From Veillonellaceae bacterium DNF00626 (GTDB taxonomy: Bacteria > Bacillota > Negativicutes > Veillonellales > Dialisteraceae), in assembly GCA_001553355.1 (NCBI GenBank), contig KQ960828.1, positions 129,668-193,667 on the forward strand: 64,000 bases of DNA. The letters are read 5' to 3'. Below are positions 48,245-57,594 of this stretch, in pieces. Below the pieces are notes generated by a model that saw only the letters and a list, made by a program, of their open reading frames with translations, had not been told where the DNA came from and did not search any database. Within the stretch, counting starts at the first letter, position 1; each line of letters opens with the position of its first letter. The translations under genes and the position numbers were made by a program.

Positions 48245-48793
48245 TTAAAACTCAATCCCTTTTCGAGCATGTATACCTTTTTGAAAAGCATGCTTAATCA
48301 AAGTCATTTCTGTCACTGTATCTGCCAATTCAATAAGTTCCGGTCTTGCATATCTTCCTGTTAATATCATATTCAATCGTGATGGTCTTTCTGTAACAAG
48401 TTGCACTACTTTTTCCACATTTATCATTTCAAATTGAATAGCATAATTAATTTCATCCAAAATCACAAGATCCCATGCATCACTCATAACTTCTTGCACT
48501 ACCATATTCCAAGCTTTTTCTGCTAAAAGTTTCTTTTTTTGATATACTTCTTCATCTTCTTTTCGGTTATGAAATACAAATCCATCCCCCATAGGGCGTA
48601 TTTCGATATTTCCATTAATTTTATGTAATGCTTCAATGGAATTTAATTCGCCATATTTCCATCCACCCTTTATAAATTGGAGAATCAATACTTTTTGACC
48701 ATTTCCCCATGCACGTAATGCCGTACCCAAGGCTGCTGTTGTTTTTCCTTTCCCTTCTCCGGTATTAATGAGAAGTAAGCCTTTTTGTTCCAT
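48245..48793 (-). CDS. cobO: Cob(I)yrinic acid a,c-diamide adenosyltransferase
   Basis: CobO/BtuR adenosylates the cobalt of corrinoids using ATP and gives the upper ligand of coenzyme B12. The 182-residue protein has the P-loop GEGKGKTTAALGTALRA near 11-27, ILQFIKGGWKYGE and VILDEINYAI. It is the CobA/BtuR type, not PduO or EutT. The ATG follows AAGGAGGTTGAC. It lies one base after cbiA and is the last of three cobalamin genes. Confidence 0.93.
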   Translation of the reverse strand: MEQKGLLLINTGEGKGKTTAALGTALRAWGNGQKVLILQFIKGGWKYGELNSIEALHKINGNIEIRPMGDGFVFHNRKEDEEVYQKKKLLAEKAWNMVVQEVMSDAWDLVILDEINYAIQFEMINVEKVVQLVTERPSRLNMILTGRYARPELIELADTVTEMTLIKHAFQKGIHARKGIEF

Positions 48794-48794
48794 G

Positions 48795-50171
48795 TCAACC
48801 TCCTTGCTGTATACGAAATTCTTTAGCGGATTCTATAAATTTTTTAGCTGCCTTTGGTTCACCATCAAAAGAAATATGTAAATAAGTTGCTAAGATATTT
48901 CCTTTAGCATAACCTTCCAAATGACTTTCTTTTTGACGTGTTCCTTGTAATTCATAGGCCCAAGAAAAATTGTCTTCACCTTCTAATATAGAAAAATGAA
49001 ATTCATGGCCCTTTAATATATCGCCTTTATTCGCTAAAATATTTTTACATAATGCTGTACCCGTGACATACCCCACGCGTTGTAACTTTTTTTGCATTCG
49101 ACACCGCGCCGGGACAATATTTACCATACTATATTTTTCGTCATTAAATCCTATTATCTCATGGCAGAGATACATTAATCCCCCGCACTCAGCATAAATA
49201 GGCATTCCCTTATTTGCTTGTTTTTTTATGTCGTTGCGCAGAGAAATATTTTTTTCCAATTCTTTTAGGAACATTTCCGGAAATCCACCACCAAATATGA
49301 GTCCATCAACATCCGGTAATTTCGTATCTCGTAAAGGACTGAAATAGATAAGTTCCGCCCCTTGTTTTTCTAATGCCATCAAACTCGTAGGATAGTAAAA
49401 AGAAAAAGCCTCATCTTTAGCAATACCAATACGTACCGTTTTTGAGGTAGAATTATATTTTATTGATTCTATTTCAAACGAAGGTGCACTCTGCGCTACT
49501 TTTATCAGCATAGATAAATTTATCCATTTATCCGCAGCATCTTTCATATATTGAATAAGTGTATCCGTTTCTATTTCTGTTACCGGTGTAAGTCCTAAAT
49601 GCCGTTCCGGAGTTTTTAATTCATCATCTCTATGAAAAGCTCCGATTACCGGTATATGAATTTTATCCATCGCTTCACGAATCATATTTTCATGACGATC
49701 AGATCCTAATTTATTTAAAATAACTCCGGCAATATTTATATCTTTGTCATACTCACGAAATCCCAACGCAGTTGCAGCCATACTCTCTCCTGCTGCTTTA
49801 CAATCAAGTACCAATATAACCGGTGCATGTAATTTTTTCGCAATTTCTGCTGTACTGCTAACTCCTTTAGCTCCACCGTCATATAGCCCCATAACTCCTT
49901 CTATAATAGAAATATCAGCGCCTTCAGATAGTGTAGCAAAAGTTGCTTCTAATTGACTTTCCGGAGTCAACCAAGTATCAAGGTTATAGGAATTTCTTCC
50001 TGCTGCTTTACCATGAAATCCCGGATCGATATAATCAGGTCCCACTTTAAAAGGTTGTACCGTATATCCTTTCTGATGGAGACTTGCTAATAACCCTGTT
50101 ACAATAGTTGTTTTACCCACACCACTATTTGTACCTGCAATGACAATACGAGGTCTCGTTGCAGTTTCCAT
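48795..50171 (-). CDS. cbiA: Cobyrinate a,c-diamide synthase
   Basis: CbiA (CobB) amidates the a and c side chains of cobyrinate with glutamine and ATP. The 458-residue protein has the N-terminal P-loop GTNSGVGKTT, VGPDYIDPGFH, EGVMGLYDGG and a C-terminal class I glutamine amidotransferase domain with GGFPEMF and YAECGGLMYL, whose cysteine is catalytic. The ATG at 50171 is 8 bases after AGAGAGAT; a TTG at 50192 adds seven residues but has no ribosome binding site. It starts one base after the cbiL stop. Confidence 0.93.
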   Translation of the reverse strand: METATRPRIVIAGTNSGVGKTTIVTGLLASLHQKGYTVQPFKVGPDYIDPGFHGKAAGRNSYNLDTWLTPESQLEATFATLSEGADISIIEGVMGLYDGGAKGVSSTAEIAKKLHAPVILVLDCKAAGESMAATALGFREYDKDINIAGVILNKLGSDRHENMIREAMDKIHIPVIGAFHRDDELKTPERHLGLTPVTEIETDTLIQYMKDAADKWINLSMLIKVAQSAPSFEIESIKYNSTSKTVRIGIAKDEAFSFYYPTSLMALEKQGAELIYFSPLRDTKLPDVDGLIFGGGFPEMFLKELEKNISLRNDIKKQANKGMPIYAECGGLMYLCHEIIGFNDEKYSMVNIVPARCRMQKKLQRVGYVTGTALCKNILANKGDILKGHEFHFSILEGEDNFSWAYELQGTRQKESHLEGYAKGNILATYLHISFDGEPKAAKKFIESAKEFRIQQGG

Positions 50172-50172
50172 T

Positions 50173-50880
50173 TTATTTATCTCTCTTTGCAATAATTGTG
50201 CTCAAATAATTAGGATCATAATCCGCCGGTAAACTATCCAAATCTTTTTCAATAATTTCATCAGGTAATCCGGCACGAGAAATAAGAATTGCATTTTTAA
50301 TCATATGATGCTTTCTTAATAATCTCTGTACAAGCGCAAATCTCTTATACACTTTCATGATTACTGCATTATCGCACGCAGCCAATGCTTGATCAAATTT
50401 TGCTTCTTCTGCTGTTGCCGGAATAATTAACAAATTCTCTTCCCATTCCGTCACAGGCATATTCATGTAAGATGCAATCCCTAAAAAAGCCGGAATTCCC
50501 GGAATCGTTTCAATTTCATAGCCTGCATTTTCTACCGCACGGAAAACATACATATAAGTACTATATAACATAGGATCACCTAATGTTAAAAATACTATAT
50601 TTTTCCCTTCTTCCAATTTCTCAGTTATCATTCTACGATTTTCTTCCCACTGTTGTGTAACAACAGTCATGTCAGTAACCATTTGAAATACAATAGGCAA
50701 AATTTCCGTCTTTTTTGAAATATAGGGTTGTGCAATTTGATAAGCTACTGAATTATCTTTTTTTTCTGTTTTCGGTGTAAGTATAATGTCAGCTTGCTGA
50801 ATAGCTTCCACTGCCTTTACTGTTAATAATTTTGAATCTCCCGGTCCTACACCAATACCAAATAGTTTTCCTTTTTTCAC
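50173..50880 (-). CDS. cbiL: Precorrin-2/cobalt-factor II C20-methyltransferase
   Basis: CbiL/CobI methylates C20 of the corrin precursor using SAM. The 235-residue protein has GIGVGPGDSKLLTVKAVE, IQQADIILTPK, FLTLGDPMLYSTY and ETIPGIPAFLG, which place it in this family among the cobalamin methyltransferases. Whether it acts on precorrin-2 or its cobalt form is not visible; anaerobic hosts usually use the cobalt form. The start is GTG at 50880 after AGGAGGG; an earlier ATG at 50910 has no ribosome binding site. It is the first of three cobalamin genes here. Confidence 0.85.
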   Translation of the reverse strand: MKKGKLFGIGVGPGDSKLLTVKAVEAIQQADIILTPKTEKKDNSVAYQIAQPYISKKTEILPIVFQMVTDMTVVTQQWEENRRMITEKLEEGKNIVFLTLGDPMLYSTYMYVFRAVENAGYEIETIPGIPAFLGIASYMNMPVTEWEENLLIIPATAEEAKFDQALAACDNAVIMKVYKRFALVQRLLRKHHMIKNAILISRAGLPDEIIEKDLDSLPADYDPNYLSTIIAKRDK

Positions 50881-50936
50881 TATAATCCCTCCTAAAATAT
50901 ATAATTTCATCTATATTCTTATTCTATCATTTTTAA

Positions 50937-51015: not shown

Positions 51016-51759
51016 TCAAAGTGTAAAGGATACCGGTAGTCGAGCTTGTACTTCTATTGCTACTCCATTCTGTTTAGCAGGAGCAAATCGCCAACTATAA
51101 ACAGAATTTACGGCAGCTTGATCTAATGTACTATTACCTGATGAACTTTCCACCCAAGCACTAGTTACCGTACCTGATACACTAATAGTTAAACCTACCA
51201 TAACAGTACCTTCTACATCAGCTGCACGCGCAGATTCAGGATAAGCGGGAGTTGTACTATACAATAATTGCGGACCTATAGTTTCACCTGTTCCATCGCC
51301 GGTCCCATTACCTATACCAGCTCCTTCACCCGAACCTGTACCGGAGCCTACACCAGAGCCTACACCGCTTCCTGTGCCTGAACCACTACCGTTCCCGGTA
51401 TAACTACGCCGATGAGAACGTGCCTTCTTGACTTCTTTTGTTTGTTCCTCTTGTGTTTTATTTGCTATTTCATGCACATCATTCACAGCTTCATTATCTG
51501 CTTCATAATCTGCAGATACCGGTGGATTATAATCCTCTTCATCGTCCTGAGATTCTTCCGGCTCATCAGAAGTTTCTGCTTCTTCACCGCCACCGCCACC
51601 ACCACCTGCTAATGATACTAAATCTACTTGTAACGGACCTTTATCTTTAGGTATTGATGGATATAAAGAAGCCAAAGCACCAATCAAAACAATTCCTAAT
51701 GCATGAGAAACTAATGACACCCCGAAGGCAGTTAGCCATGGATACTTTTTCGTAACCAT
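51016..51759 (-). CDS. tonB: TonB-family protein with a Gly/Ser-rich linker
   Basis: TonB carries energy from ExbB-ExbD to outer membrane receptors. The 247-residue protein has an N-terminal membrane anchor (about 9-32) with Ser15 and His19 in the conserved S-x3-H arrangement. An acidic segment (58-85) follows, and a C-terminal TonB domain (about 160-247) with PAYPESARAADVEGTVMVG-like sequence (shown in part) and the SWRFAPAKQNG stretch. The linker is rich in glycine, serine and threonine (125-160) rather than the common proline repeats. It is the last gene of the exb-ton operon, 9 bp after exbD. Confidence 0.9.
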   Translation of the reverse strand: MVTKKYPWLTAFGVSLVSHALGIVLIGALASLYPSIPKDKGPLQVDLVSLAGGGGGGGEEAETSDEPEESQDDEEDYNPPVSADYEADNEAVNDVHEIANKTQEEQTKEVKKARSHRRSYTGNGSGSGTGSGVGSGVGSGTGSGEGAGIGNGTGDGTGETIGPQLLYSTTPAYPESARAADVEGTVMVGLTISVSGTVTSAWVESSSGNSTLDQAAVNSVYSWRFAPAKQNGVAIEVQARLPVSFTL

Positions 51760-51768
51760 ATGACCTCC

Positions 51769-52188
51769 TTATTCTCGATCGGGTGTTTTTACTTCAGTAG
51801 CAATACCGATTTTACTCACACCTGTAGCTTTTAACTGATCCAAAACAAAAACAAATGTCCCATGTTCTGATTTAGCATCAGCACGTAAAATAATACTTAG
51901 ATCCGGGTTTCTGGCTTTTTCAATTTCAATACGTTTCCGTAAAGCTTCTTTCGGAATTTGTTCTTGCTCAACAAATATTTTTCCATCTGCTGTAACCGCA
52001 ATAGGTACTGTTTTATCCATATTTAAACGAGCACTGGTCGTTTGCGGTAAATTCAAATTAATGGATTTTTGAACAACCATGCTAAGCATACTCATCATAA
52101 AAAATACCAATAAGAAAAATATAATATCAATCATTGGTATAATCATAATTTTCGGCTTTTTTTCGACGCCTAATGATTCTAATTTCAT
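51769..52188 (-). CDS. exbD: Biopolymer transport protein ExbD
   Basis: ExbD is the inner membrane partner in the TonB energy complex and holds the proton-binding aspartate in its single helix. The 139-residue protein has this residue as Asp21 in PMIDIIFFLLVFF, and a periplasmic domain with AVTADGKIFVEQEQIP. It overlaps the exbB stop in ATGA. The length is normal. Confidence 0.93.
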   Translation of the reverse strand: MKLESLGVEKKPKIMIIPMIDIIFFLLVFFMMSMLSMVVQKSINLNLPQTTSARLNMDKTVPIAVTADGKIFVEQEQIPKEALRKRIEIEKARNPDLSIILRADAKSEHGTFVFVLDQLKATGVSKIGIATEVKTPDRE

Positions 52189-52793
52189 TTTTTATCACCT
52201 ACTACAATGGATAAGTAAATAGAAGATAACTTTTCAATCGCTGAAACATATCTAGCGACTACTTGTGACAAATATGTATAAACAATCAGTGACAAAATAG
52301 CGACAAATAATCCGGTTGCGGTACAAACCAAAGCTTCTGCCACACCGCCGGTAATAGCAAACGGTTGCCCTTCAGTTCCTGATAATACATCAAAAGAATT
52401 AATCATCCCAATAACTGTTCCTAAAAGTCCCATTAAAGGTGATAAGGTTACGATGACATCTAAATAATTTAAATAGCTCTTTAAAAGTCCGGCCTCATGT
52501 ACCGCAGCACCCTCTAAAATGGTTTCTTGATGCGCACTTGTATTAAAAATCTTGACACCTTCTAAAATAACCTTAGCAGGTATACCATGATCTTTTTCCA
52601 ATACGCCTTTTAATCCTTCGATATCATTACGTGATAAAAATTCCGGTATATCATTAGCTAATTTTTTTACATTTGATTTATTAGCGTGATAATAACTAAA
52701 GCGCTCAATAAAAATAGCTACTACAATAATAGAGCAAATCACCAGTGGATACATCATAAAACCACCGGCATGAAATAAATGAAGCAAATCCAT
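52185..52793 (-). CDS. exbB: Biopolymer transport protein ExbB
   Basis: ExbB is the inner membrane channel component that works with ExbD and TonB to use the proton gradient. The 202-residue protein has an N-terminal helix (about 10-30) and two C-terminal helices with LSPLMGLLGTVIGMINSF and GGVAEALVCTATGLFVAI (both shown in part), typical of ExbB/TolQ. Encoding with tonB supports ExbB over TolQ. The ATG follows AAGGAGGATATT. Confidence 0.93.
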   Translation of the reverse strand: MDLLHLFHAGGFMMYPLVICSIIVVAIFIERFSYYHANKSNVKKLANDIPEFLSRNDIEGLKGVLEKDHGIPAKVILEGVKIFNTSAHQETILEGAAVHEAGLLKSYLNYLDVIVTLSPLMGLLGTVIGMINSFDVLSGTEGQPFAITGGVAEALVCTATGLFVAILSLIVYTYLSQVVARYVSAIEKLSSIYLSIVVGDKK

Positions 52794-52946: not shown

Positions 52947-53282
52947 TTAATATCCATTTGTCTGACTAACTACACGAAAATCATCTACATGAAATGCATG
53001 ACAGATTGATTTCCAATAAACACCGGTTAATATAGAGCGATACATCTCATTTTTTGTGATTATTAGTAAACGACTTCCATCTTGGGTAATACGAATGAGT
53101 CCATTGTTAATATATTTTTGATAATCCTTTTCTTCCATTAAATTTTTCAAGCGTAGTAACCCTTCTCGTTCTTCCCCACTTTGATACTCAGGCCGTTCTA
53201 AAATTGGAGTAAATCGTACTTCATAAATTTTATCACTATATCCTTTTTCTTTCGCTGAGTATCGTTCTTCTTTATTATCCAT
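52947..53282 (-). CDS. Small protein of unknown function, possibly DnaA domain I-like
   Basis: I do not recognise this 111-residue protein with confidence. The first 35 residues are charged and polar. The C-terminal part (about 70-106), with LLIITKNEMYRSILTGVYW followed by KSICHAFHVDDFRVV, resembles the pattern of DnaA domain I (hydrophobic strand, NE-x-Y/F, helix, final strand). No AAA+ or DNA-binding domain is present. The ATG at 53282 is used; a GTG at 53291 adds three residues and no better ribosome binding site. It is 23 bp after radC on the same strand, which is probably co-transcribed. The gene is likely real because of its spacing. Confidence 0.55.
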   Translation of the reverse strand: MDNKEERYSAKEKGYSDKIYEVRFTPILERPEYQSGEEREGLLRLKNLMEEKDYQKYINNGLIRITQDGSRLLIITKNEMYRSILTGVYWKSICHAFHVDDFRVVSQTNGY

Positions 53283-53305: not shown

Positions 53306-53989
53306 TTAAATTTGTCCACGTTCTTGTAGACTAACAAAAATACCATCACCAATAACAACATGATCTAAAACCGTCATATCCAACAAATTAGCGGCTTTAG
53401 CAAAGGCCTTAGTAAGATGAATATCTGCCCGTGATGGTTCAGGATCCCCCGACGGATGATTATGAACTAATATCAATCCATTTGCTTTGAAACGAAGGGC
53501 CCAACGCATAGTTTCTTTTATATCTGCCGGTGCAGCATTCATATTTCCTATACTAATCTCTTTGTATCCTAAAAGACGATTTTTTACATTTAAAAAACAG
53601 ACAAAAAAATGCTCTTGCTGTTCATGACGCAATTGTTCCATAAAATGACTTGCCACTTTAGAAGGTTGCCCAAAATAAAGTAATGTATTTTTTTGACATT
53701 GTTTAGTAAGACGACGTCCTAATTCAATAGCAGCACAAACAGTTATGGCTTTATCCGGCCCAATACCATTAACAGTCGTTAAATCTCTCCAATCTAAATT
53801 ATCAAATCTATTAAGTCCTTGTTCTACTGTAAGTTTTGCAACCACCTCTTGAGCGATTTCCATAACAGAATGCCCCTTTCTTCCGGTCCGCAACAAAATA
53901 GCTACTAAATCTGCTAATGTTGCTTGTTTTGGTGATTCTGCAAATTTTTCTCTTGGTTTATCTTCATTTTGCATCTCTCTAAGTAGCAT
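53306..53989 (-). CDS. radC: RadC-family JAB-domain protein
   Basis: RadC (YsxA/DUF2466) has an N-terminal helix-hairpin-helix region (about 45-85) and a C-terminal JAB/MPN metal-binding domain. The metal motif is HNHPSGDPEPS near 176-186, with the histidines and aspartate, and an upstream glutamate in YKEISIG. The role is not settled, though the name comes from an old and disproved repair assignment. The 227 residues are the normal length. The ATG follows AAGGAGGATTTTC. It lies 26 bp after DUF4321. Confidence 0.93.
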   Translation of the reverse strand: MLLREMQNEDKPREKFAESPKQATLADLVAILLRTGRKGHSVMEIAQEVVAKLTVEQGLNRFDNLDWRDLTTVNGIGPDKAITVCAAIELGRRLTKQCQKNTLLYFGQPSKVASHFMEQLRHEQQEHFFVCFLNVKNRLLGYKEISIGNMNAAPADIKETMRWALRFKANGLILVHNHPSGDPEPSRADIHLTKAFAKAANLLDMTVLDHVVIGDGIFVSLQERGQI

Positions 53990-54015: not shown

Positions 54016-54285
54016 TTAAAACTTTTTATAAATCCATGCTGCCAATAAAATACCAAAAATACTAATTAAATTTGGTGCAAAACGGATACCGAAATTGATT
54101 TCGATAATGGCTAAATTTAGATAAATATCTTTAACATCGAAAATCTCATAAGTTTTCGTTAAATATGGCATAATTCCGCTCAAGCTAATTTGACTAAGAA
54201 GTTGTCCCAATATTCCGCCTAAAAGAGCTCCACAAACTAAAAATAAAATCAATCCAAATACGCTATTTTTCCCTACTCTCATCAT
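54016..54285 (-). CDS. DUF4321 small membrane protein
   Basis: This 89-residue protein matches the DUF4321 type of small Firmicute membrane proteins. It has two hydrophobic segments at about 8-30 and 68-87, and a middle part with IYLNLAIIEINFGIRFAPNLISI (shown in part), which is the recurring family pattern. The function is unknown. Such genes often lie near maf and radC; here only radC follows. Two consecutive ATG codons (54285, 54282) are both possible. Confidence 0.75.
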   Translation of the reverse strand: MMRVGKNSVFGLILFLVCGALLGGILGQLLSQISLSGIMPYLTKTYEIFDVKDIYLNLAIIEINFGIRFAPNLISIFGILLAAWIYKKF

Positions 54286-57215: not shown

Positions 57216-57248
57216 TATGTAAAGAACAACCATGTTCCTTTATTTCAG

Positions 57249-57594
57249 TGCAAGCATTCAATAAGCCGAGTTCTGTACCATTTTTATGGCGATGATTATC
57301 TATCTAGTTGATAAATTACTTTACCAATCAAGCGACGCAACCCGGAAGGTCAGCGGGCAACCTCAACCCTTCCCTATTCGGTCTTGCTTCGGATGGGGTT
57401 TACCAAGCCATTCGGTCTCCCGAATGCTGGTGCGCTCTTACCGCACCTTTCCACCCTTACCGTTTACACGGCGGTTTCCTTTTCTATGGCACTTTCCCTA
57501 GAGTTACCTCCGCCGGACGTTATCCGGCATCCTGCCCTGCGAAGCTCGGACTTTCCTCACGCCTTACGGCCCGCAATCATCTTTCCTGCTTGCG
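57249..57594 (-). ncRNA. rnpB: RNase P RNA (catalytic subunit)
   Basis: The minus strand carries the conserved features of bacterial RNase P RNA. P1 is formed by GCAAGCA near the 5' end and TGCTTGC near the 3' end. GAGGAAAGTCCGAGCTTCGC and GGGCAGGATGCCGGATAACG are present in the order expected. The 3' end has GGTACAGAACTCGGCTTATT, which contains the invariant ACAGAA. A strong promoter lies at 57601-57629 and a terminator downstream at 57177-57215. Ends are estimated to within about 5 bases. Plus-strand reading frames here are not genes. Confidence 0.96.

Follow-up and report, generated by a model that had tools for sequence, protein, structure and literature searches.

Domain I is known as a part of the replication initiator DnaA, in which it serves for docking. 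Its elements run in the order a1-a2-b1-b2-a3-a4-b3, and it is described as sharing the KH motif (PMC4285326). In B. subtilis, the binding of SirA and DnaD depends on two residues of DnaA, Trp27 and Phe49 (PMC4285326, PMC10201431), and this regulator site is poorly conserved between H. pylori and B. subtilis (PMC4285326). The Trp27/Phe49 hot spot is a functional feature and does not define the fold family. Genes under cobalamin riboswitches are usually expressed mainly under B12 shortage. A study of riboswitches in Sporomusa and Veillonella (PMC9600662) does not contain 'DnaA' in its main text. In the open literature, no relevant paper on a free DnaA domain I protein tied to cobalamin was found among the matches listed; the sole match for DnaA domain I together with cobalamin concerns the acetylation of E. 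coli DnaA. A widespread protein that consists of this domain alone and stands under cobalamin riboswitches was not found in the literature searched.

Here we analyze the protein product of positions 52947-53282, which we call Q, of a window of Veillonellaceae bacterium DNF00626, by which we mean the whole stretch of 64,000 nucleotides examined. Our main reading, to which we assign a probability of about 0.6, is that Q is a docking protein built on a stand-alone DnaA domain I, and that the Q family has ties to the cobalamin regulon.

The Q Locus

A preliminary description of this DNA had placed an open reading frame of 111 aa at these positions; we confirm it and find it on the minus strand, which had been left unstated. 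The minus-strand gene order in the window is radC, Q, exbB/tolQ, exbD/tolR, tonB, cbiL, cbiA, cobO:

53306..53989, minus: radC (NCBIfam NF000642, TIGR00608), directly upstream of Q, 23 bases apart
52947..53282, minus: Q, a 111-aa predicted DnaA-domain-I-like protein without other DnaA parts; start ATG 53280-53282, stop 52947-52949
52185..52793, minus: exbB/tolQ-type energiser (TIGR02796/TIGR02797, under the curated cut-offs), 153 bases downstream of Q
51769..52188, minus: exbD/tolR-type energiser (TIGR02801 and ExbD models, under the curated cut-offs)
51016..51759, minus: tonB family protein (TIGR01352, above cut-off)
50173..50910, minus: cbiL/cobI, precorrin-2 C20-methyltransferase (TIGR01467, above cut-off)
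48795..50192, minus: cbiA/cobB, cobyrinate a,c-diamide synthase (NF002204 and TIGR00379, above cut-off)
48245..48793, minus: cobO, cob(I)yrinic acid a,c-diamide adenosyltransferase (TIGR00708 and NF004637, above cut-off)

The adjacency to radC that had been pointed out earlier thus holds, and the two genes are possibly cotranscribed. The Q of the window would be produced with RadC, and perhaps also with the downstream TonB and cobalamin genes; promoter- and terminator-like sites around Q are no commoner than in shuffles. The window's gene order recurs in two more loci of the Dialister-type family (L085, L086), and at three loci tested in other families (L083, L084, L087) radC was not found beside Q. 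In the loci compared, occurrence beside radC is confined to the Dialister-type family. Because the adjacency is limited to that family, and because RadC is outside the 25 commonest Pfam families among 134 neighbors of Q, we reject RadC as a general partner, and the role with RadC put forward in the preliminary description is unsupported.

We also considered Q as a TonB accessory, exbB-exbD-tonB following it in the window. TonB is present in 55 of the 60 genomes of the order, with or without Q, and exbB-exbD-tonB persists without Q in two congeneric genomes (G003, G005); because TonB is near-universal and these two genomes keep its genes without Q, TonB alone fails to explain Q.

Two other features of the window lie further upstream. 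An 89-aa membrane-like protein without NCBIfam match is encoded upstream of radC (54016-54285, minus) and is conserved near radC in two relatives. At 57247-57592 (minus) there is a class A RNase P RNA (Rfam RF00010, 281 bits), and the small ORFs there are likely spurious.

Spread of the Q Family

A single-sequence search detected relatives of Q in 22 of 60 related genomes at the order level, including its own genome (1.59 Mb, 64 contigs). With a family profile made from 22 relatives, we detected Q in 129 of 380 genomes of the class Negativicutes and in 92 of the 234 better assemblies of the class. Among the carriers are Dialister succinatiphilus, Veillonella magna, V. ratti, V. seminalis, and V. 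intestinalis; the plasmids and phages searched gave no match. Given these relatives across the class, the Q ORF is more than a chance frame. The open frames of the family are mostly about 92 to 150 aa long, and the two longest of those inspected (G290, G294) owe their length to an extension into the upstream leader, with no fusion to a recognizable domain.

In two genomes of family f2, a MeaB-like gene is followed by another, diverged copy of Q, some 6 kb away from the first (L023 in G018, L024 in G021). On the family tree, these second copies group near those of family f24.

Resemblance to DnaA Domain I

The Pfam model DnaA_N (PF11638) matches residues 43-97 of the window's Q with an E-value of 0.011 and 15.9 bits, short of the curated cut-off of 24.6 bits. 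At E <= 1, it matches 39 of 49 Q members (best 6.9e-7), and three members (G021, G121, G122) pass the curated cut-off in whole-genome searches. The similarity, which the preliminary description had allowed might disappear in an alignment of relatives, is thus stronger with them. An hhalign comparison of the 49-row Q alignment with domain I of 20 DnaA proteins of the class gave a probability of 94.3 and a score of 44 over Q residues 39-99, as compared with at most 3.2 and 17.6, respectively, for 20 column-shuffled controls, and 0.06 and 7.6 for a reversed control. The least biased homology test is the reverse search, in which the Q-family profile was run against 398 genomes spread over the phylum: it matched in 18 genomes outside the class, and all 18 matches are N-termini of full-length DnaA, each in a frame of 398 to 539 aa that has the DnaA Walker motif and is strongly similar by BLAST to the DnaA of the window's genome.

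The structural model points the same way, with the following predicted feature:

52965..53174, minus: DnaA domain I fold a1-a2-b1-b2-a3-a4-b3, Q residues 37-106 (AlphaFold2 model)

This model of the window's Q has a pLDDT of 83, and above 90 in the core. Its best solved match is B. subtilis DnaA domain I (4tps, 4tps_B; Foldseek E 5.3e-3, VIA-align Z 8.6, 2.9 A over 76), followed by those of H. pylori (2wp0, 2wp0_D; Z 8.0, 2.2 A over 73) and E. coli (2e0g; Z 6.6, 3.3 A over 76), with V. cholerae DciA fourth (Z 6.5). The model of a second, distant member (L073), which has an additional helix ahead of a1, returned the identical first four with Z of 8.7, 8.1, 6.7, and 6.1. The Foldseek E-values of the two models are only 5.3e-3 and 1.4e-2, and because unrelated models can come close to a Z of 8, the weight of the fold rests on its agreement with the sequence evidence. 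Ribosomal-protein and KH-domain chains also match the Q models, at Z of about 5 to 6, below DnaA domain I; the arrangement is a common one. No clear other fold emerged, the top three solved structures being DnaA domain I for both members.

By every test run, Q is predicted to be a stand-alone homolog of DnaA domain I. The free domain proposed in the preliminary description gains support from the profile alignment with its shuffled controls, the structure comparison of two members, and the 18 of 18 DnaA matches of the reverse search. Its placement in the C-terminal third of the product needs correction, as about two thirds of the protein are covered, the fold elements of the model running from residue 37 to 106. 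The statement that Q holds nothing else of DnaA stands: at 111 aa, it has neither the AAA+ ATPase (domain III) nor the DnaA-box binding domain (IV), and a separate complete DnaA of 558 aa is encoded elsewhere in its own genome.

Several observations were made on the DnaA proteins themselves. Domain I of the DnaA of the window's genome (L025 961-2637) is so diverged that Pfam DnaA_N gives no match. The same model is unmatched in five of 30 genomes (G004, G008, G012, G054, G057), all of the window's order, and it matched in the other genomes of the class searched. In another genome, a second frame of 529 aa with a DnaA N-terminal domain (G293:C93:3176-3343, L119) occurs in addition to a normal DnaA, and represents either a second DnaA or contamination. 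Weak matches of Q to YutD-like (E 0.091), TraY (E 0.11), and YbaB (two of 49 members, best 0.011) models were set aside.

Conserved Residues and the Regulator Site

Ahead of the domain, the family carries a signature without counterpart in DnaA:

53181..53225, minus: N-terminal signature motif F-T/S-P-L-x-E-R, residues 20-34

Arg30 and Phe97 are invariant in all 49 members, and Arg82 (46/49), Pro26 (45/49), and Arg103 (42/49) are nearly so. Mapped without gaps onto B. subtilis DnaA, Tyr57 of Q falls on Trp27 and Met80 on Phe49. Neither Trp27 nor Phe49 is kept at these columns in any of the 49 members: the first is occupied by Tyr (35), His (5), Leu (4), and others, the second by Met (20), Leu (14), Arg (8), Ile (6), and Lys (1). 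In the DnaA of Q-bearing genomes, Trp is found at the Trp27 column in 23 of 25 cases and Phe at the Phe49 column in 17 of 25.

The preliminary description had suggested a decoy for regulators of domain I. Because both hot-spot residues are lost in 49 of 49 members, a plain decoy for the known regulator site is not favored, and this idea is weakened accordingly. Judging from these alignments, we favor a changed docking face on Q. Together with the N-terminal motif and its invariant Arg, such a face would suit a partner other than DnaA's, or one besides it.

Cobalamin Genes Around Q

The recurrent company of the Q family consists of genes for cobalamin synthesis, uptake, and use, transporters of B12 type among them. 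We counted Pfam families among the 134 proteins encoded within two genes of Q at 40 loci, excluding the window's own neighbors, dropping proteins shorter than 120 aa and cutting each protein at 330 aa. CbiK was the commonest (11); other leading families were the Tyr/Trp-type synthetase family tRNA-synt_1b (9), methylmalonyl-CoA mutase (7), ABC ATPase (6), CbiX (6), MscL (5), periplasmic binding protein (5), and TonB plug (4); the CbiX matches are probably the same proteins as those matching CbiK. The tRNA synthetase and MscL neighbors come mostly from family f5 and its neighbors f6 and f8. Many members of the Q family are found outside a B12 context, one group lying beside tyrS/mscL and others beside copper or sensor genes.

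The phyletic pattern within the 60 genomes of the order also involves cobalamin. CobO scoring above 205 bits is present in all 22 genomes with Q; among the 38 without Q, it is present in 17 and absent from 21. Put differently, Q occurs in none of the 21 genomes without a high-scoring CobO, and 17 of the 39 with one have no Q. The line between two kinds of CobO at 205 bits was set after seeing a gap in the scores (194.5 to 210.8 bits). Because 17 of the 21 genomes belong to one family, the association does not amount to 21 independent cases; independent evidence comes mainly from the window's own family, with four genomes (G001, G003, G006, G009), of which G003 is 75% complete.

A link to the class II (B12-dependent) ribonucleotide reductase was considered for the window and rejected. 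Using the NrdJ_Z model only, we obtained no match in the window's own genome and matches over the cut-off in relatives that have no Q.

Cobalamin Riboswitches Ahead of Q

A cobalamin riboswitch (RF00174) lies on the same strand as Q, within 800 bases upstream, at nine of 47 loci from 40 genomes, against 0.057 expected from the number of cobalamin riboswitches per genome (Poisson P 1.6e-17). These counts concern position only, and the 47 loci had been picked for spread before any look at riboswitches, except that of G337, which was added later; the other eight genomes are G131, G373, G336, G289, G273, G297, G293, and G117. A later scan of 39 loci, three of them repeats of the earlier 47, yielded 11 further loci with an upstream riboswitch among the 36 new ones, and because these were picked after the pattern had been seen, the overall 20 of 83 is not an unbiased rate. 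At three of the later loci (L162, L163, L164), only part of the aptamer model is matched (35.5 to 41.7 bits), and the small loci scanned gave no additional upstream riboswitch. For 20 genomes, in which the genome-wide scan gave the best matches only, each Q locus was also scanned individually.

The carriers span four families (f5, f11, f24, f31), in which the riboswitch stands directly ahead of Q. On the family tree, the riboswitch label must change at least four times given the strongly supported branches; the best tree has seven changes, vs. a mean of 17.2 in shuffles, with L091, a near copy of L055, counted as having no riboswitch without a scan. The genes that follow differ: at L055, the riboswitch is followed by Q, mutase genes, and a MeaB-like gene; at L072, L092, and L093, by Q and cbiK; and at L066/L165, by Q only, the next gene being on the opposite strand. 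In other cases (L007, L010, L011, L020, L075), the riboswitch is downstream of Q or divergent. Two of these (L007 1879-2052, L010 1844-2013) are located right after Q and ahead of a methylmalonyl-CoA-mutase-like gene.

The Q family is thus statistically strongly linked to cobalamin regulation, a connection in genes and riboswitches that the preliminary description had missed. The window itself contains no cobalamin riboswitch, and at least eight are found elsewhere in the genome among the best matches listed. Because no riboswitch lies near Q, the B12 link of the window is one of gene order only, with a gap of 153 bases between Q and exbB.

Possible Roles of Q

As a docking protein, which domain I is in DnaA, Q would be non-enzymatic, and where a riboswitch precedes it, it would be made mostly at low B12. 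Its partner could belong to replication, as for example the helicase or the helicase loader do, or to the cobalamin pathway; we hold these two to be about equally possible, and the smaller share of the probability goes to nucleic-acid binding or something else.

A tentative explanation is replication control, which adds a B12 trigger to the earlier idea of a decoy or adaptor: Q would compete with or replace domain I of DnaA on a shared partner, such as the helicase DnaB, a DnaD-like protein, or DnaA itself, and so tune or slow initiation at low B12. Q and DnaA domain I share fold and family, and over 25 genomes Q resembles domain I of the DnaA in the same genome more than that of other genomes (permutation p 0.0014). 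This excess is not due to composition, since none of 400 column-shuffled controls reaches it, and it persists when each of 14 families is represented by a single genome (median p 0.018). These tests were devised after the data had been seen, however, and as proof of a shared partner the similarity is suggestive only: it is not concentrated at the known regulator site (p 0.71), it falls short of significance in the family sampled best (p 0.22), and shared history can cause it. The loss of Trp27 and Phe49 throughout the family also speaks against this explanation, and Q does not track NrdJ_Z. Taken furthest, a riboswitch-controlled free DnaA domain I would couple replication initiation or helicase loading in the Negativicutes to the supply of corrinoids; a fall in B12 would cause the free domain to be made and change what docks on the initiation machinery. 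We consider this coupling rather unlikely.

No less plausible than replication control, and equally provisional, is an adaptor of the cobalamin pathway, in which the docking fold would have been recruited, for example, to retain corrinoid enzymes such as CobO, CbiK, or the mutase with MeaB, to pass them on, or to regulate uptake. Consistent with this are the repeated placement of Q with genes for corrin synthesis, uptake, and mutase and behind cobalamin riboswitches, its phyletic link to high-scoring CobO, and the N-terminal motif with its invariant Arg along with the two near-invariant R82 and R103. The large family f5, however, has a Q copy next to tyrS/mscL without an adjoining B12 gene, and because the B12 genes beside Q vary by family, no single enzyme stands out as a partner.

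An RNA- or single-stranded-DNA-binding protein of KH-like type, acting for example on mRNAs of the cobalamin regulon, seems improbable to us: the KH-like fold and the Z of about 5 to 6 for ribosomal and KH-domain chains would suit it, but structural scores are lower than for DnaA domain I and no KH family occurs among the Pfam matches of the 49 members. That Q is an ordinary passenger, a conserved small protein unconnected to replication or B12 whose neighbors are there by chance, would fit the mixed neighborhoods of many members but is very unlikely in view of the riboswitch proximity at nine of 47 loci against 0.057 expected and of the label changes, four or more, forced on the tree.

Under our main reading, the family hints that B12 supply and a docking protein of the replication type are connected in a way not described before. 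Should Q touch replication, initiation would receive through a free domain an input under metabolite control; should it work in corrinoid metabolism, a new pathway would have recruited the initiator's docking domain.

Comparison With Known Systems

The closest known relative of Q is DnaA domain I (PF11638), which it resembles in predicted fold order, in the best structural matches of two models, in profile similarity, and in reciprocal detection. It differs from domain I in being a separate protein without AAA+ or DNA-binding domain, in its extra N-terminal motif with an invariant Arg, and in the replacement of Trp27 and Phe49 in 49 of 49 members. The helicase loader DciA (DUF721) is a small KH-like protein that may have its general fold in common with Q, the two Q models scoring Z 6.5 and 6.1 against V. 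cholerae DciA; unlike in the case of domain I, no Pfam DciA match was found in the 49 Q members at E <= 1, where 21 families matched, and the structural score is lower than for DnaA domain I. SirA, HobA, and DiaA are accessory proteins that act via DnaA domain I, as Q would if the replication explanation is right, but they bind domain I and have other folds (PMC4285326), whereas Q itself would be a domain I. Finally, Q resembles riboswitch-regulon genes of the Negativicutes such as V. parvula mutA and S. ovata btuB2 (PMC9600662) in having RF00174 directly upstream, at 20 loci.
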